Assembly: GCF_001953875.1 (NCBI RefSeq)
Contig: NZ_MQUR01000011.1
Coordinates: 14,919-78,918 of the forward strand
Direction of reading: 5' to 3'
Origin: Streptomyces amritsarensis
GTDB taxonomy: Bacteria > Actinomycetota > Actinomycetes > Streptomycetales > Streptomycetaceae
Length of the DNA stretch: 64,000 bases
Shown: positions 27,783 through 35,190 of the stretch, piece by piece
Position numbering within the stretch: position 1 is the first letter of the stretch
Layout: every line of letters starts with the position of its first letter
Made by a program: the position numbers and the translations under genes
Notes under the pieces: model-generated
What the model was told of the DNA's origin: nothing
The model's database searches: none
What the model saw: the letters and a program-made list of their open reading frames with translations, nothing else

Positions 27783-28001
27783 ATGCCTCGTTACGAATTC
27801 CGCTGCCGGACCTGCGACGACACCTTTGAGGTCAGCCGCCCCATGGCCGAGTCCTCCGCCCCCGCCGACTGCCCGGCCGGGCACGCCGACACCGTCAAGC
27901 TGCTGTCCGCCGTCGCCGTGGGCGGGTCGAGCAGCGCCCCCGCGGCCGCGCGTCCCATGGGCGGCGGCGGGGGCTGCTGCGGTGGTGGCGGCTGCGGCTG
28001 A
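27783..28001 (+). CDS. FmdB-type zinc-ribbon protein
   Basis: 72 residues from the ATG at 27783. MPRYEFRCRTCDDTFEV and CPAGH give the two Cys pairs of an FmdB zinc ribbon. The C-terminus is Gly-rich with three more cysteines (GGGGGCCGGGGCG). Family members are described as putative regulatory proteins, first seen next to formamidase genes; here there is no such gene. Monocistronic. Confidence 0.85.
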   Translation: MPRYEFRCRTCDDTFEVSRPMAESSAPADCPAGHADTVKLLSAVAVGGSSSAPAAARPMGGGGGCCGGGGCG

Positions 28002-28014
28002 CACCTGCGGCCAC

Positions 28015-28044
28015 GGCTACGGCTACGGCTACGGCTACGGCTAC
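28015..28044. repeat. five tandem copies of GGCTAC
   Basis: Perfect hexanucleotide repeat plus a partial sixth unit (GGCTGG), in the short convergent spacer between the FmdB gene and the O-methyltransferase gene. Probably prone to slippage. Confidence 0.85.
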
Positions 28045-28070
28045 GGCTGGACAGGCTGCAGCCCACAGCG

Positions 28071-28730
28071 CTACCGCTTGCGCGACAGCGTCAGGCCGTC
28101 CGAGATCGCCAGCAGGACGGAGTCCATGCGCGGGTCGGCCGCCACGTGGTCGTTGAAGGCGCGTACGCCCGCCGCCGAGCCGGTGGCCGACTCGTCGAGG
28201 ACGGTGCCGTGGTACAGCGTGTTGTCCGTGACGATCAGGCCGCCGGTGCGCATGCGCGGGACGAGCTCCTCCCAGTACGAGATCTGGCTCTCCTTGTCGG
28301 CATCCACGTAGGCCATGTCGATGTGGGGTTCGGCGGGCATCGCGCGCAGGGTCTCCAGGGCCGGCGCGATGCGCAGCTCGATGCGGTCGGCGACGCCGGC
28401 CTCCTCCCAGGCCTCCTTGCCGTAGGCCGTCCACTCCTCGGAGACGTCGCAGGCGATGATGCGGCCGTCGGCGGGCAGTGCCTGGGCCATCGACAGGGCC
28501 GAGAAGCCGGTGAAGGTGCCGACCTCGACGATGTGGCGGGCGCCGGTCAGCCGGACGAGGAAGGCCAGCAGCGGCCCCTGCTCCTCCGCGGACTGCATCC
28601 CGGCGACATCCGGGAACGTGGCGTACGTCCTCGCCACCAGCCCCCGCTGAACGGAGTCCAGCGGGGGGTTGTGGTCGAGCATGTACTGGTACAGCTCGTC
28701 CGTGATCTTCGTGCTGTTGCCTTTGCTCAT
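28071..28730 (-). CDS. class I SAM-dependent O-methyltransferase
   Basis: 219 residues of the caffeoyl-CoA/catechol type. SAM loop EVGTFTGFSALSMAQALP, acidic residue in IACDVSEEW, metal/substrate side DMAYVDADKES (metal Asp), and TDNTLYHG with the second metal ligand. It methylates hydroxyl groups with a divalent metal. Its ATG overlaps the stop of the HAD gene by 4 bp (ATGA), so it is the last gene of the Ter-type biosynthetic operon and may methylate that operon's product. Confidence 0.88.
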   Translation of the reverse strand: MSKGNSTKITDELYQYMLDHNPPLDSVQRGLVARTYATFPDVAGMQSAEEQGPLLAFLVRLTGARHIVEVGTFTGFSALSMAQALPADGRIIACDVSEEWTAYGKEAWEEAGVADRIELRIAPALETLRAMPAEPHIDMAYVDADKESQISYWEELVPRMRTGGLIVTDNTLYHGTVLDESATGSAAGVRAFNDHVAADPRMDSVLLAISDGLTLSRKR

Positions 28731-29557
28731 GCGTCCAGTCTGCCGAGCCGCCCGGCCTCACGGGCGAATGCGCGCACTATTTCCTCGCCGGCCAGGACAC
28801 CCGCCTCGGTGAGGGGGGTCACCGAGGGCGCCGTCCAGCGTGCGTCGGCCAGTTCGCCGTGGCCCGGGCGCCAGGCGGCGTCGGCCGCCAGCAGCAGGTC
28901 GGCGTCGAGGAGCGAGTCGCCGGCGGCCAGGGTCGTGGTCGCTCCGGTGCGGCGGGCGACCTCGCGCATGGCGGCGCTCTTGGTGAGCGGGCCGGGCACG
29001 GCGTAGATCTTCCGGCCCTGGAGGGAGACCGTCCAGCCGCGGGCGCCGGCCCACTCGGCCAGGGACTTGAGCCATTCGTCGGGAACCAGGGCGCGTTCGA
29101 CGACGAGGTACGCGAAGAGGTCCTCCGCCACCCGGGCCTTGCGCAGCCACGCCGGGTCGGCGGCGGCCAGCAGGTGGTCGTGGACCTCCTCCAGCGGGGC
29201 GCACTCCTCGGCGAGGCGGGCCGCGACCTGCCGGCGCCAGTCGCGGTCCGGCACGCCGTCGACGAGGAGCTGCCCGCCGTTGGCGCAGATCGCGTAGCGG
29301 GCCGGGCGGCCGGGGAAGCGGATGCGCTGGTACTGCTTGCGCGTGCGGGTGGTGGTGGGGACGAAGACGACGTACGGGTCCTCGGTGAGCTCCGCCAGCA
29401 GTGCCGCGGCCGTCTCCGTCATGTAGGACAGCGGCCTGCTCTCGTGGACCTCGACGCACAGCAGCCGCGGGGCCACCGGGTCGGGCATGGTCAGACCGAG
29501 GGCGGCCGTCGAGTAGATGAGCGTACGGTCGAGGTCACTGGCTACGAGGACAGTCAC
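28727..29557 (-). CDS. HAD family hydrolase of the Ter biosynthetic operon
   Basis: 276 residues from a GTG overlapping the previous stop (GTGA). Motif I SDLDRTLIYS, motif II TTTRTRKQ region, Lys TKSAAMREVARR and the final acids AAGDSLLDADLL place it in the Cof/sucrose-phosphatase-like HAD group. HAD phosphatases are regular members of the nucleoside-like metabolite branch of Ter systems, where they would dephosphorylate the product. The frame is open far upstream, but that part is the antiparallel shadow of the preceding gene. Confidence 0.87.
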   Translation of the reverse strand: MTVLVASDLDRTLIYSTAALGLTMPDPVAPRLLCVEVHESRPLSYMTETAAALLAELTEDPYVVFVPTTTRTRKQYQRIRFPGRPARYAICANGGQLLVDGVPDRDWRRQVAARLAEECAPLEEVHDHLLAAADPAWLRKARVAEDLFAYLVVERALVPDEWLKSLAEWAGARGWTVSLQGRKIYAVPGPLTKSAAMREVARRTGATTTLAAGDSLLDADLLLAADAAWRPGHGELADARWTAPSVTPLTEAGVLAGEEIVRAFAREAGRLGRLDA

Positions 29558-32130
29558 TTGGAGGCCACAGCCTTTCCGTCGGCGCCGGTGGCGCCGCGCG
29601 TGTATCGGGGGTGGATGAGCCCGACGCAGGTGTACGGCAGCCCGTCGACCTCTTCCACCGGGACGCCGCGCTGCTCGGCGAGCAGGCGTACGTGGTCCAG
29701 GTCGGCCCCGGCGCCGCGCTGTGCCAGGATCTTCCACGGCACCCGGCGCAGCAGGACGCGGGTGGTCTCGCCGACGCCTGGCTTGACGAGGTTCACGTCG
29801 TGGATGCCGTACTCCTCGCTGATCCGCTCGACGGCCGCCCAGCCCTCCCAGGTCGGCGTGCGGTCGGCCGCGAGGAGCTCCTTGACCTCCTCGTCGACGG
29901 CGTCCGCCACGTCGTCGAAGTGGGCGGCGACGGCGTCGACGAATTCGACGGAGACGTCGGCCCCGGCGAGCTCGCGGTAGAACTTCGCGCCGTGGAAGTC
30001 GGCGGGTCCGACCAGGTCGGACCTGAGAACCGTACGCGAGACGAGCCCGGAGACGGTGGAATTGAGACAGGCGGAGGGGATGAGGAAGTCCTCCCGGGTG
30101 CCGTAGGTGGGCACGCAGGAGCCGGGGTCGGCGAGGACGACGATCTCCGGGTCGAAGCCGGGGAACTCCTTCAGGGCTTCCTTCAGCTCCCGGGTGATGG
30201 CGCCCTTGCCGGTCCAGCCGTCGACGAAGACGACGTCGGCGGGGTCGTGGTGGGCGGCCAGCCAGCGCAGGGCGTTGGCGTCGATGCCGCGGCCGCGCAC
30301 GATGGAGACGGCGTAGTGCGGCAGGTCCAGGCCGTGCCGGGCGCGGGCCCAGCGGCGCATCAGGACGCCCACGGGGGTGCCGGCGCGGGCCAGGGAGACC
30401 AGGACCGGGGAGGGGGAGCGTTCGGCGAGGACGGTCTCGGTGACCGTGCCGACGGCGCGGGCCACGCGGGCGGCGGAGGCGGCCAGTGCGCTGCGGTAGA
30501 GCTCCTGGTACTGGGGCGAGGGCTGGTACTCGACGGGCAGGGACTCGGCGTAGTGCGCGCCGCCGGCCTGGATGGCCTCCTCGCGTTCCTCGGTCGGGGC
30601 CTCGAGCTGGACGCCGGAGAGGTCCTGGAGCAGCCAGCCGACGTCCTCGGGGGCGTAGGAGGAGAAGGCGGGCCCGCGCAGGGGCTCGGTCATGATCGGC
30701 TCCTGCCGGTGGTCGGGGGTGCCGGCGGGCGTGCCGGACGCGGTGGGAGGTGTCCGCGGTAGGTAGGACGGGACGACGGCCAGGACGAGGCGGCCGGTGT
30801 GCGGGGCGAGTGCCGCCAGGAGTCCGGTGTGCAGCTCGGGGGTGTCGCCGGCCGAGTCCACGACGGCGACGACGGTGTCGAAGCCGGCGGCGTCCGAGGG
30901 GCGGGCGACGTTGTAGGCGTAGCGGTCGCCGGGGCCGTCGGCGGGGGTGTCGTGGGCCGGGAAGACGAGGCGGGTCCGGATGGCGTAGCCGGGGTCGTCG
31001 ACGGCGAGCACCGGGGAGCGGGTGGTGGTGGAGAAGCGGACCTCGTCGGCCGTGCCCGTCTCCTCCAGCGCCTTGGCGAGGCGCAGCGGCACGTACATCA
31101 GCTCCTCGTTGCCGAGTACGAGGACCCGTCCGGGTGCGCTGCCGAGCGCGGCCGTGAGCCGGGCGGTGAGGTCCGGCAGGGCGGCCTCCAGGCGCCGGCG
31201 GTGCAGGGGGGTGAAGCCGTGGCGGCCGCCGTCCGGGAGGCCGTGCGGCCAGTTCAGGTCGACGCGCAGGACGGGCCGCGGGGCGCCCCCCGGTCCGGCC
31301 GCGTCCGCCGCGGAGGTCTGCTCGTACTCCTCGACCAGCTCCTGTCCCCTGGCGAGGACGCCGTCCGGGAGGGTGACCGTGCCGGAGGCGAGGGCGATGA
31401 GGTCCACCCGTGCGCCGAGCTCGGCGGCGAAGGCCGTGAGGCGGTCGCGGTCGGCCGGGGAGCGCATGTCGACGAGGGCGACGACCACGTAGCGGGAGCG
31501 GGGGTGGCGGGCGTGGAGGTCGCGGATGGTGTTGAGGACGGTGTTGCCGGTGGAGAACTCGTCGTCGACGAGGACGAGCGGCCCGTCGCCGGCGAGGAGC
31601 GCGGGGTTCTCGGGCAGCAGCAGGTGGGAGGTGGCGTGCGAGTGCGCCTCCTCGAAGCCCCCGGCCGTCGCCACGCCCGGCACGGGCCGGCGGGTGGAGT
31701 GCAGGTACGGGGCCGAGCCGAGGCCGTCGGCGACGCAGTGGCCGAGGCCGGTGGCGGTCTCGGCGTAGCCGAGGACGACGGCCGCCGCCGCGGCGTCGTC
31801 GCCGAGCAGTGCCCGCACGCGTGTGCCGAGCCCGTGTCCGGCGGCGTACACGGTGTGCGGGGACTGTGGGACGTGCTTGCCCAGTACCTGTGAGACGAGC
31901 AGGTGTGCGCGCTTGGGGTTGCGCCGCAGGGCCAGCCCGAGCAGGTCCGTCAGCCGCGGGCTCAGCCGGGGGCCCGGCCGCGGCCCGCCTTCGGAGTCGT
32001 GCAGGGCGACGCCCAGCCGGTCCGCGACCCAGGTTCCCGACCACACCTCGTCGATCGTCTTGCCCCTTCTTGTGGTCCTCGTGGTGGTCCTCGTGGTCAT
32101 CGCCGTCTGCTTCGGCACCGGCCCGTTCAC
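29554..32130 (-). CDS. fused phosphoribosyltransferase/TRSP and StiP (PRTase_1) protein
   Basis: 858 residues in one uninterrupted frame. Residues about 1-470: a phosphoribosyltransferase with the PRPP loop VLVDDEFSTGNTVLN, followed by a TRSP domain (RVLVLGNEELMYVPLRLA). Residues 480-858 equal a complete StiP/PRTase_1 family protein starting MTEPLRGPAFSSYAPEDVGW, with VFVDGWTGKGAITRELK as a second PRPP-like loop. In relatives these are normally two adjacent genes. Here no stop separates them, yet the second part retains its own ATG (30693) and AGGAG, so both a fusion and a free StiP could be made. The GTG start overlaps the previous stop by 4 bp. Predicted role: glycosidic or ribosyl transfer in making a nucleoside-like compound. 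Confidence 0.85.
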   Translation of the reverse strand: MNGPVPKQTAMTTRTTTRTTRRGKTIDEVWSGTWVADRLGVALHDSEGGPRPGPRLSPRLTDLLGLALRRNPKRAHLLVSQVLGKHVPQSPHTVYAAGHGLGTRVRALLGDDAAAAAVVLGYAETATGLGHCVADGLGSAPYLHSTRRPVPGVATAGGFEEAHSHATSHLLLPENPALLAGDGPLVLVDDEFSTGNTVLNTIRDLHARHPRSRYVVVALVDMRSPADRDRLTAFAAELGARVDLIALASGTVTLPDGVLARGQELVEEYEQTSAADAAGPGGAPRPVLRVDLNWPHGLPDGGRHGFTPLHRRRLEAALPDLTARLTAALGSAPGRVLVLGNEELMYVPLRLAKALEETGTADEVRFSTTTRSPVLAVDDPGYAIRTRLVFPAHDTPADGPGDRYAYNVARPSDAAGFDTVVAVVDSAGDTPELHTGLLAALAPHTGRLVLAVVPSYLPRTPPTASGTPAGTPDHRQEPIMTEPLRGPAFSSYAPEDVGWLLQDLSGVQLEAPTEEREEAIQAGGAHYAESLPVEYQPSPQYQELYRSALAASAARVARAVGTVTETVLAERSPSPVLVSLARAGTPVGVLMRRWARARHGLDLPHYAVSIVRGRGIDANALRWLAAHHDPADVVFVDGWTGKGAITRELKEALKEFPGFDPEIVVLADPGSCVPTYGTREDFLIPSACLNSTVSGLVSRTVLRSDLVGPADFHGAKFYRELAGADVSVEFVDAVAAHFDDVADAVDEEVKELLAADRTPTWEGWAAVERISEEYGIHDVNLVKPGVGETTRVLLRRVPWKILAQRGAGADLDHVRLLAEQRGVPVEEVDGLPYTCVGLIHPRYTRGATGADGKAVASK
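30691..30704 (-). promoter_or_regulatory. internal ribosome-binding site and start codon for the StiP part
   Basis: On the minus strand AGGAG (30700-30704) is followed after 6 bases by ATG (30693-30691), exactly where stand-alone StiP proteins begin. It would allow a separate 379-residue product from inside the fused gene. Confidence 0.65.
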
Positions 32131-33293
32131 ACCTGGAGCCCGGCCGTGAGCAGGTCGACGAAGCCGACCTGTTCCTTCGCCACACCGAAGACCTCGGCGC
32201 GCAGCATGGTGCGCTCGGCCCAGGCCCGGTGGGGCTTCACCTCATTCATTTTGTTCGTATAAGCCGATCTCATCACTCCGCCGCCGCCGCGCTCGGGCCG
32301 CAGGATGTCCTGGGCGTCGCAGAACTCCTCGTGGGAGACGACCGACAGGGCGTGCACGGGCGTGACGTGGGCGGGGTGGATGCAGGTTTTGCCGAGCAGC
32401 CCGTTGGCCCGGTCGAGCTCGATCTCGCGCAGCAGGCCGTCCAGGTCGTGCTCGATCAGCGCGGTGCGCAGTTCCTCGACGCCCTCCTCCAGGAAGGGGC
32501 TGCGGCGCAGCTGCGGCTTGAAGAGGCGCTGCTGGCTGCGGAAGTACTCCCAGACGGGGCCGGTCACGGTGAAGCCGGTGCCGTCGGCCCTGCTCAGGAC
32601 GTTGACGACGTCCGCGATGACGCCGGCGACGATCTGGACGTCGTAGGCGGTCATGTCGGGGGTGCGGCGCAGCCCGTAGGCGGAGCAGAAGTCGGTCACG
32701 CCCAGGCGCAGCGCCAGGACCCGCTCGCGGTGGCTGTTGACCGTGCGGGAGATGCCGGCGAGGGCTTCGACGCGGGTTTCGAGGTGGAGGAGCTCGGGGG
32801 TCTCCAGCACCGGCATGGCATACAGCCGGTCCCGTCCACCGGCGGCCTCCGCGTCCGCGACGGCTTCGAGGAACGGGATGCCGCGCCGCTCGTCGAACTT
32901 CGGCAGTACGAATCCGGCCAGGTGCCGCACCGAGCGGCCCAGGCGGCGCGCCAGGTCCGGTATCTGCTCGGGCGTGCGGACGCGGATGAAGAGCAGCGGG
33001 AGCTCGGCGGCGTCGCCGTCGAGGTCGGAGAACTGGCGGACGAGGTTCTCCTCGGCCCCGACGACATCGGCGTCGCTGATGGAATCCTCCAGGCAGAGGA
33101 CCATGGAGACGACTCCGCGGGCTGCCTGCTTGCGGATGTCCTCGGCCAGTGCGGGGCGGGTGGCGGGGCTGTAGAGGGTGGCTCCGAGGGCCGCCGCGAG
33201 GACGCGGGCGGGCGAGGCCCCGGTGAACTCCGCCGGTTCCTGGTGGAAGAGGTCCTTACGGACCGTGGGCGATATGTGCCCAAAGTGACGCAT
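32127..33293 (-). CDS. HpcH/HpaI aldolase / citrate-lyase-like protein of the Ter operon
   Basis: 388 residues. CitE-like TIM barrel: GATLYSPATRP near the start, VVSMVLCLEDSI (acidic metal ligand), LLFIRVRTPEQ (Arg), AMPVLETPE (Glu ligand) and GKTCIHPAHV. CitE-like lyases are the first step enzymes of the biosynthetic module described for Ter systems. First gene of the operon; it has a promoter-like sequence and a GGGGGAAG ribosome site upstream. It is divergent from a TerD-like gene. Confidence 0.87.
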   Translation of the reverse strand: MRHFGHISPTVRKDLFHQEPAEFTGASPARVLAAALGATLYSPATRPALAEDIRKQAARGVVSMVLCLEDSISDADVVGAEENLVRQFSDLDGDAAELPLLFIRVRTPEQIPDLARRLGRSVRHLAGFVLPKFDERRGIPFLEAVADAEAAGGRDRLYAMPVLETPELLHLETRVEALAGISRTVNSHRERVLALRLGVTDFCSAYGLRRTPDMTAYDVQIVAGVIADVVNVLSRADGTGFTVTGPVWEYFRSQQRLFKPQLRRSPFLEEGVEELRTALIEHDLDGLLREIELDRANGLLGKTCIHPAHVTPVHALSVVSHEEFCDAQDILRPERGGGGVMRSAYTNKMNEVKPHRAWAERTMLRAEVFGVAKEQVGFVDLLTAGLQV

Positions 33294-34449: not shown

Positions 34450-35190
34450 TCACCTCTTGGTGCTCTTGTAGCCCCGCCCCCACTGGAGCCCCCAGCCGTA
34501 CAGCCGGTCCAGCTCGGACTGGAACCCGTACACGAACTTCACCTCGCGCTTGACGACGAGCTCGCCCTTGACCTTCTCCAGGGAGACGACGGCGCAGGAG
34601 CGGGCCTGCGGGTGCCGCTCGTCCAGCGGGATCTCGATCCTGGGGCCCGTCACGGGGTAGAGGGTGACCATGGCGTGCGTCCGGTCGAAGGCCGGGGTCT
34701 GGTCGTAGATGTAGACGAAGACCAGCAGCCGCTTGATCTCGTCGGCGTGGTCGAGGTTGATGTAGAGGGTCTCCCCCGACCCCGAGCCGAACCGGTCGTC
34801 CCCGCTGAGCTTGACGTACGGCGGGTCGTTGAGGTCCCCCAGCAGGTTGCCCAGCGGCTGGACGGCGCCGCGGGTGCCGTCGGTCAGCTCGTACAGGCAG
34901 CCCATGTCGAGGTCGACGTTGACCATGCCCTGGGTGTGCGCCTGCACCATGTCCGGCTTGAACAGCTTGAACGGATGGCGGAACAGCTGGCCGCTCTGCC
35001 CGGAGCGGCCGCCGATGTCCGAGGTGCGCATGCGCCACGACAGGTTGACGCGCAGGTTGCCGTGGACGGCGCCCTGCCTGGTGAGCGACACCGTCGATTG
35101 CCGTTTGGTCAGCTCGATCGCGTTCGACGAGGCACTGCCCGACTGGAACTGCACGGCCCGGCTGCCCAAGATGCCGTCGAAGAAGCCCAT
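34450..35190 (-). CDS. TerA-like tellurium resistance protein
   Basis: 246 residues. Starts MGFFDGILGSR, then an all-beta domain with LTKRQSTVSLTRQG, LYELTDGTRGAVQPLG and SGDDRFGSGSGETLYINL, ending in a second strand block with VYIYDQTPAFDRT. This order matches actinobacterial TerA/TerF-type proteins of the TerD superfamily, which bind Ca2+ and assemble with TerC at the membrane. It is on the minus strand, downstream of the DUF475 gene but separated from it by a terminator. Confidence 0.8.
   Translation of the reverse strand: MGFFDGILGSRAVQFQSGSASSNAIELTKRQSTVSLTRQGAVHGNLRVNLSWRMRTSDIGGRSGQSGQLFRHPFKLFKPDMVQAHTQGMVNVDLDMGCLYELTDGTRGAVQPLGNLLGDLNDPPYVKLSGDDRFGSGSGETLYINLDHADEIKRLLVFVYIYDQTPAFDRTHAMVTLYPVTGPRIEIPLDERHPQARSCAVVSLEKVKGELVVKREVKFVYGFQSELDRLYGWGLQWGRGYKSTKR

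Follow-up and report, generated by a model that had tools for sequence, protein, structure and literature searches.

Is an O-methyltransferase gene that lies directly behind a set of Ter biosynthetic genes the fixed last step of their pathway, or a neighbour with an expression of its own? This question is raised by a locus of Streptomyces amritsarensis, which was analysed within a window of 64,000 nucleotides (contig NZ_MQUR01000011.1, positions 14,919 to 78,918). A previous sequence-only reading had described four minus-strand open reading frames (ORFs), from 33293 to 28071, linked by three 4-bp overlaps, and both the coordinates and the overlaps were confirmed from the sequence (Table 1). 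Pfam searches returned C-C_Bond_Lyase (PF15617, E 5.7e-121) for the CitE-like ORF, PRTase_2 (5.6e-69), TRSP (2.2e-37), StiP (1.4e-107) and PELOTA_1 (1.8e-34) for the second ORF, and Methyltransf_3 (PF01596, E 2.8e-53) for the last, hereafter OMT. The third ORF, hereafter HAD, gave zero Pfam matches at 0.01, was related by phmmer to trehalose phosphatase (E 1.4e-8) and was modelled with a HAD fold (pLDDT 89.3, best Z 19.8). GC content by codon position was coding-like in the CitE, PRTase and OMT ORFs, the HAD ORF being absent from this list as it was masked by a longer open frame beginning far upstream.

Since PRTase_2, TRSP, StiP and PELOTA_1 all fall within the 858-residue ORF, this ORF holds two enzymes. 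The assignment of the first three ORFs to the Ter "nucleoside-like metabolite" module was borne out by the matching domains, the set of CitE-like lyase, PRTase_2-TRSP, StiP-PELOTA_1 and HAD being what we take to define that module. One correction applies to the earlier description: the second ORF unites two enzymes, each of which has a gene of its own in the plasmid loci of Tsukamurella and Leclercia. The single open frame was found at 118 of 120 loci of the genus, window included, and an in-frame ATG inside it could provide a putative separate start for StiP-PELOTA.

A TerC/DUF475 gene and three TerD genes, one of them divergent, stand upstream of the array, which identifies the locus as a ter locus; the features of the Ter module, namely the PF15617 lyase, PRTase_2-TRSP, StiP-PELOTA_1, HAD and adjoining TerD/TerC genes, are all present in the window. 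Between the TerC gene and the divergent TerD gene, a 246-aa ORF (34450-35190) showed a sub-threshold TerD match (0.025), and a relative of it was present in all 20 fetched loci of the family except L199. As in the window, CitE-like, PRTase and StiP genes occur together in the annotation of both plasmid loci, that of Tsukamurella and that of Leclercia. However, the Leclercia plasmid locus has an ATP-grasp gene, whereas Pfam gave no ATP-grasp match in the four ORFs of the window and none is annotated in the Tsukamurella stretch; an OMT behind HAD is a feature of the window that both of these loci lack. The product of the Ter module (Anantharaman, Iyer and Aravind 2012) is called only nucleoside-like in the available passages of three papers (PMC8115787, PMC4633105, PMC12054061), and three tellurium-resistance proteins of S. 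viridochromogenes increase upon oxidative stress according to the available part of another (PMC3912134). Among the matches listed in searches of the open-licence literature, no title dealt with an OMT gene belonging to a ter operon.

Table 1. Coordinates of the features in the window (position 1 is its first nucleotide)
Feature	Start	End	Strand	Basis or remark
CitE-like C-C bond lyase, 388 aa, first gene	32127	33293	-	PF15617
858-aa ORF, PRTase_2-TRSP followed by StiP(PRTase)-PELOTA_1 in a single open frame	29554	32130	-	Pfam
HAD-type phosphatase, 276 aa	28727	29557	-	Trehalose phosphatase match and model fold
Catechol-type O-methyltransferase (OMT), 219 aa, predicted metal site intact	28071	28730	-	PF01596
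GTGA, CitE stop and PRTase ORF start	32127	32130	-	Sequence
GTGA, StiP-PELOTA stop and HAD start	29554	29557	-	Sequence
ATGA, HAD stop and OMT start	28727	28730	-	Sequence
In-frame ATG, AGGAG 6 nt upstream	30691	30693	-	Read by hand from sequence
CAGACT hexamer, putative -10	28737	28742	-	6 nt before OMT start, inside HAD 3' end
Divergent TerD-domain gene	33479	34255	+	PF02342, 9.4e-42
TerC/DUF475 gene and two TerD genes	35327	37784	-	Domain search

On the question of the prevalence of METHYLTRANSFERASE in the genus, PELOTA_1 was found in 147 of 150 genomes, the window's own included. From 119 of these 147 genomes, 120 PELOTA loci were fetched, and CitE, the PRTase ORF and HAD were present at 119 of them. 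The exception, L083 (G023 C2), is an isolated second PELOTA_1 protein of 58% identity, with no CitE, PRTase_2 or HAD found beside it. The CitE-like lyase, the two phosphoribosyltransferase-type enzymes and the HAD protein would constitute a stable unit, corresponding to the known Ter biosynthetic module, and, following the literature, they presumably build and then dephosphorylate a nucleoside-like metabolite together.

The distribution of the OMT goes largely against the sequence-only reading, which had made it the coupled last gene of the operon: in most relatives, 97 of the 150 genomes of the genus, no orthologue was found, although the Ter module is present in nearly all of these 97. A search at 1e-50 matched 64 genomes, with an orthologue (62-100% identity, a cut chosen by us) in 53 and matches of at most 57% in the 11 others. 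The part of that reading which placed the OMT in the ter locus stood, since in 52 of the 53 orthologue-bearing genomes the gene and PELOTA_1 share a contig and are no more than about 8 kb apart, G048 being the sole genome with the two on different contigs. Among the fetched loci the OMT was present at 48 of 120, plus the window, and in 42 of these 48 it lies downstream of HAD in the same orientation, no more than 373 nt away. In the remainder, HAD and OMT are separated by 2.2-3.0 kb (L091, L095, L104 and L121) or 0.8 kb (L168), or the OMT lies 6 kb off on the other strand (L115); two-component-system-like or DedA-like genes, named by eye, occupy the interval in the first four.

Loci found via the OMT alone gave the same order: among the best 80 of 224 relatives, nearly all titled Streptomyces and some overlapping in genome with the 120-locus set, every one of the 80 has HAD upstream of the OMT in the same orientation, with a gap of -4 to 337 nt. 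An HAD-OMT gene fusion hinted at by end coordinates in L176 was rejected, a stop lying between the two. At OMT-less loci, no alternative tailoring gene was seen by eye among the clustered downstream genes in crude gene calls, from which small or rare genes could escape. The genes flanking the OMT, DUF4383-like and PspA-like as named by eye, are often conserved too. Directly behind the OMT of the window there is a tandem array of the 6-nt unit CGGCTA (27989-28048, 9.8 copies), and the RNA fold analysis of the region behind the gene returned nothing (z -0.20).

A tree was built by a quick method from CitE, StiP-PELOTA and HAD of 135 of 141 loci, six being without one of the three. OMT presence required 13 changes on this core-gene tree against a shuffled mean of 45, a clustered distribution in which the gene was gained or lost repeatedly. 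The window falls in a 12-row clade with the OMT in every row. Within this clade pN/pS was 0.23 for the OMT, 0.21 for HAD, 0.18 for CitE and 0.16 for StiP-PELOTA; the OMT value, next to that of HAD, indicates that the gene is maintained by selection there.

In other genera of the family, an OMT orthologue (at least 65% identity) was found in 24 of 66 genomes, and G456 showed a partial OMT match containing a stop. Loci were fetched for 19 of the 24 OMT-bearing genomes and for one genome without the OMT. HAD and OMT are separated by a gene on the opposite strand in 15 of the 19 OMT-bearing loci, and this gene encodes a P-loop protein that is weakly uridine-kinase-like (1.7e-4, slightly below the Pfam cut-off). 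The gap is short in L198 and L204, the two genes lie inverted and several kb away in L197, and L193 has no HAD. In another genus, L200, L201 and L202 gave no CitE match, yet TRSP, StiP-PELOTA, HAD and OMT are present. Profile searches found no PELOTA_1, StiP or PRTase_2 in G443 and G457, whose loci (L192 and L193) retain an intact OMT within the ter locus, with HAD still in L192; these two genomes, from one genus only, are the instances of an OMT without the module. Of the ten sampled genomes in which PELOTA_1 is missing, eight, three from the genus and five from the family, are also without an OMT orthologue, which favours some link between OMT and module. At the level of the class (296 genomes), OMT matches outside the genus reached at most 57% and none was less than 300 kb from a PELOTA match on the same contig, most OMT and PELOTA matches being on different contigs of draft assemblies. 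The PF15617 search in 149 genomes of the phylum gave mostly weak matches to other lyases.

The enzyme itself was then characterized by homology and structure modelling. The OMT model (pLDDT 88.5) superimposed on SafC of Myxococcus xanthus (5log) with Z 31.6 and an rmsd of 2.3 over 205 aligned residues with 46% identity, and on TrmR (5zw3) with Z 25.9. Residues D143, K146, D169 and N170 were invariant in 37 of 37 aligned sequences; from the roles known in relatives, we take D143, D169 and N170 to be the metal site and K146 to be the catalytic lysine. On domain, residues and fold, the OMT is classed as a cation-dependent catechol-type O-methyltransferase with a predicted intact metal site. SafC (5log/5lhm), of the Methyltransf_3 cation-dependent bacterial O-methyltransferases, is the closest to it but, unlike SafC, the OMT sits in a ter locus.

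These data bear on the reading first advanced for the locus, that of a methylated product. On this view the HAD phosphatase would free a hydroxyl on the Ter product and the OMT would methylate it, so that OMT-bearing species contain a methylated form. The consistent position of the gene in the ter locus and behind HAD, its purifying selection and invariant metal-site residues, and its joint absence with PELOTA_1 in eight of ten genomes are all consistent with such a tailoring step. The fold is also shared with TrmR, a tRNA 5-hydroxyuridine methyltransferase (activity named for 8k1f), which provides a known case of nucleoside O-methylation, yet TrmR acts on tRNA and is only 23% identical to the OMT. 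However, most genomes of the genus have the module without the orthologue, G443 and G457 have the OMT without StiP and PRTase_2, HAD and OMT are usually separated in other genera, and the closest experimental structures for which a substrate is named belong to plant phenylpropanoid, caffeoyl-CoA and catechol enzymes. A methylated Ter product is a possibility that we regard with considerable doubt.

The upstream region of the OMT was compared across 148 OMT loci, of which 139 were usable (six were dropped for a misaligned start, two for the opposite strand and one for lack of HAD), yielding 124 unique upstreams. A Shine-Dalgarno (SD)-like 4-mer (GGAG, GAGG, AGGA or AAGG near the start) occurred in 68 of the 124. 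Among the 56 without it, 49 carried an xAxxxT hexamer at -12 to -7, exactly 6 nt before the start, a box first spotted by eye in aligned rows and counted afterwards; at offsets 7 to 59 the next-best count was 14 of 56, and only 7 of the 68 SD-bearing upstreams had the box. These counts are not independent, because the upstreams are related by descent. The hexamers were CACACT (20), CAGACT (10), TAGAGT (5), TACGGT (5) and rarer others. Applied to the starts of the other genes, the test scored 0 of 169 unique upstreams for CitE and 0 of 71 for HAD, the latter after 127 of 219 loci had been dropped for a misaligned start.

The hexamer of the window lies within HAD coding sequence, but other loci have the box outside HAD. 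With a gap of 13 nt or more and no SD-like sequence, the box was kept in 21 of 28 upstreams, and three more (L226, L229 and L285) have it at spacing 7. In 13 window-related loci with the box outside HAD, columns -14 to -3 all showed at least 1.0 bit, compared with 3 of the 26 preceding columns. In five loci with a 19-nt gap, which are close kin, the HAD end resembles the box region at 11-15 of 22 bases, and in our reading the two segments may be copies of each other; all five have lost A2 or T6 from the hexamer at the HAD end, and all five retain both in the OMT-proximal hexamer. The box of the window, CAGACT, keeps A2 and T6 but begins with C instead of the consensus T, and is accompanied by no SD-like 4-mer; no -35 was seen in the window by eye and a general promoter scan was empty. 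In some loci with longer gaps (L127, L245, L249, L268, L279 and others), a conserved CTACAGTC stretch, which may be an ordinary -10 box, was seen by eye about 55-60 nt upstream of the OMT.

The xAxxxT box resembles published leaderless promoters, for which the available part of PMC3160421 gives TANNNT about 12 bp before the start as the mark of leaderless bacterial genes. In S. coelicolor, leaderless mRNAs arise from 21% of primary start sites, as stated in the accessible part of PMC4895711. We infer from the conservation of the element that the CAGACT box may function as a promoter element of the OMT. An independent promoter would tell against the sequence-only reading of a coupled last gene, and a promoter-like element is indeed conserved at the OMT start.

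It could be argued that the coupling is genuine, i.e., that ATGA makes OMT translation dependent on HAD and that the hexamer is merely HAD coding sequence, an arrangement that would be compatible with methylation of the Ter product. The 4-bp HAD/OMT overlap does occur in 24 of the 80 loci found via the OMT, and no kept OMT upstream with a gap below 13 contains an SD-like sequence. However, the hexamer is conserved where it is noncoding, it is broken at the HAD end and kept at the OMT in the 19-nt-gap loci, and the HAD starts, which share a 4-bp overlap with PELOTA at 78 of 120 genus loci, have no such box. Similar overlaps occur between CitE and TRSP at 36 of 120 and between HAD and OMT at 10 of 48 genus loci, and this recurrence makes each overlap by itself ordinary. 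Dependence of the OMT on HAD translation appears unlikely. Least probable of all is that the OMT is an unrelated gene kept beside the ter locus through general Streptomyces synteny, for although its flanking genes are often conserved and OMT and module each occur alone, the frequent changes in OMT presence have left just 1 of 53 orthologues off the PELOTA contig, and in G443 and G457 the gene stays in the ter locus despite the absent PRTase module.

Since most relatives lack the OMT, a few keep it without the operon and it seems to carry a promoter of its own, we somewhat favour the view that the OMT belongs to the ter locus as an optional neighbour, likely with its own leaderless promoter, and not a fixed last step of the Ter module. 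In the lineage of the window, the OMT would most likely be transcribed from a leaderless promoter whose -10 box, suggested by the conserved element, lies in the last codons of HAD, and read-through from the operon may add to this transcription. With a promoter box before the OMT, the HAD/OMT overlap may mean only that HAD terminates inside the OMT promoter; it would then be largely a by-product, the HAD frame terminating at the TGA supplied by the OMT start. As OMT and module are each found without the other, the OMT need not act on the Ter product in every species. Observations at odds with the optional-neighbour view include the tight linkage (52 of 53 and 80 of 80), which exceeds what an unrelated gene would need, though general Streptomyces synteny could explain it, the occurrence of the OMT without the module in one genus only, and the eight genomes that lack both PELOTA_1 and an OMT orthologue.

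In summary, the ter locus of Streptomyces and its family holds a real and conserved, but optional, O-methyltransferase gene that is probably transcribed separately. A further scheme, which we consider rather improbable, would have the Ter metabolite occurring plain and O-methylated across Streptomyces, with the OMT under dual control by stress read-through and by the leaderless promoter in the HAD 3' end; if so, the methylated fraction could be adjusted independently of the amount produced. The locus also suggests that in a high-GC actinomycete a 4-bp overlap need not imply translational coupling. Finally, if the OMT acts on the Ter product it would offer a chemical handle on that product, since a +14 Da pair dependent on the PRTase gene would be expected between related strains with and without the OMT.
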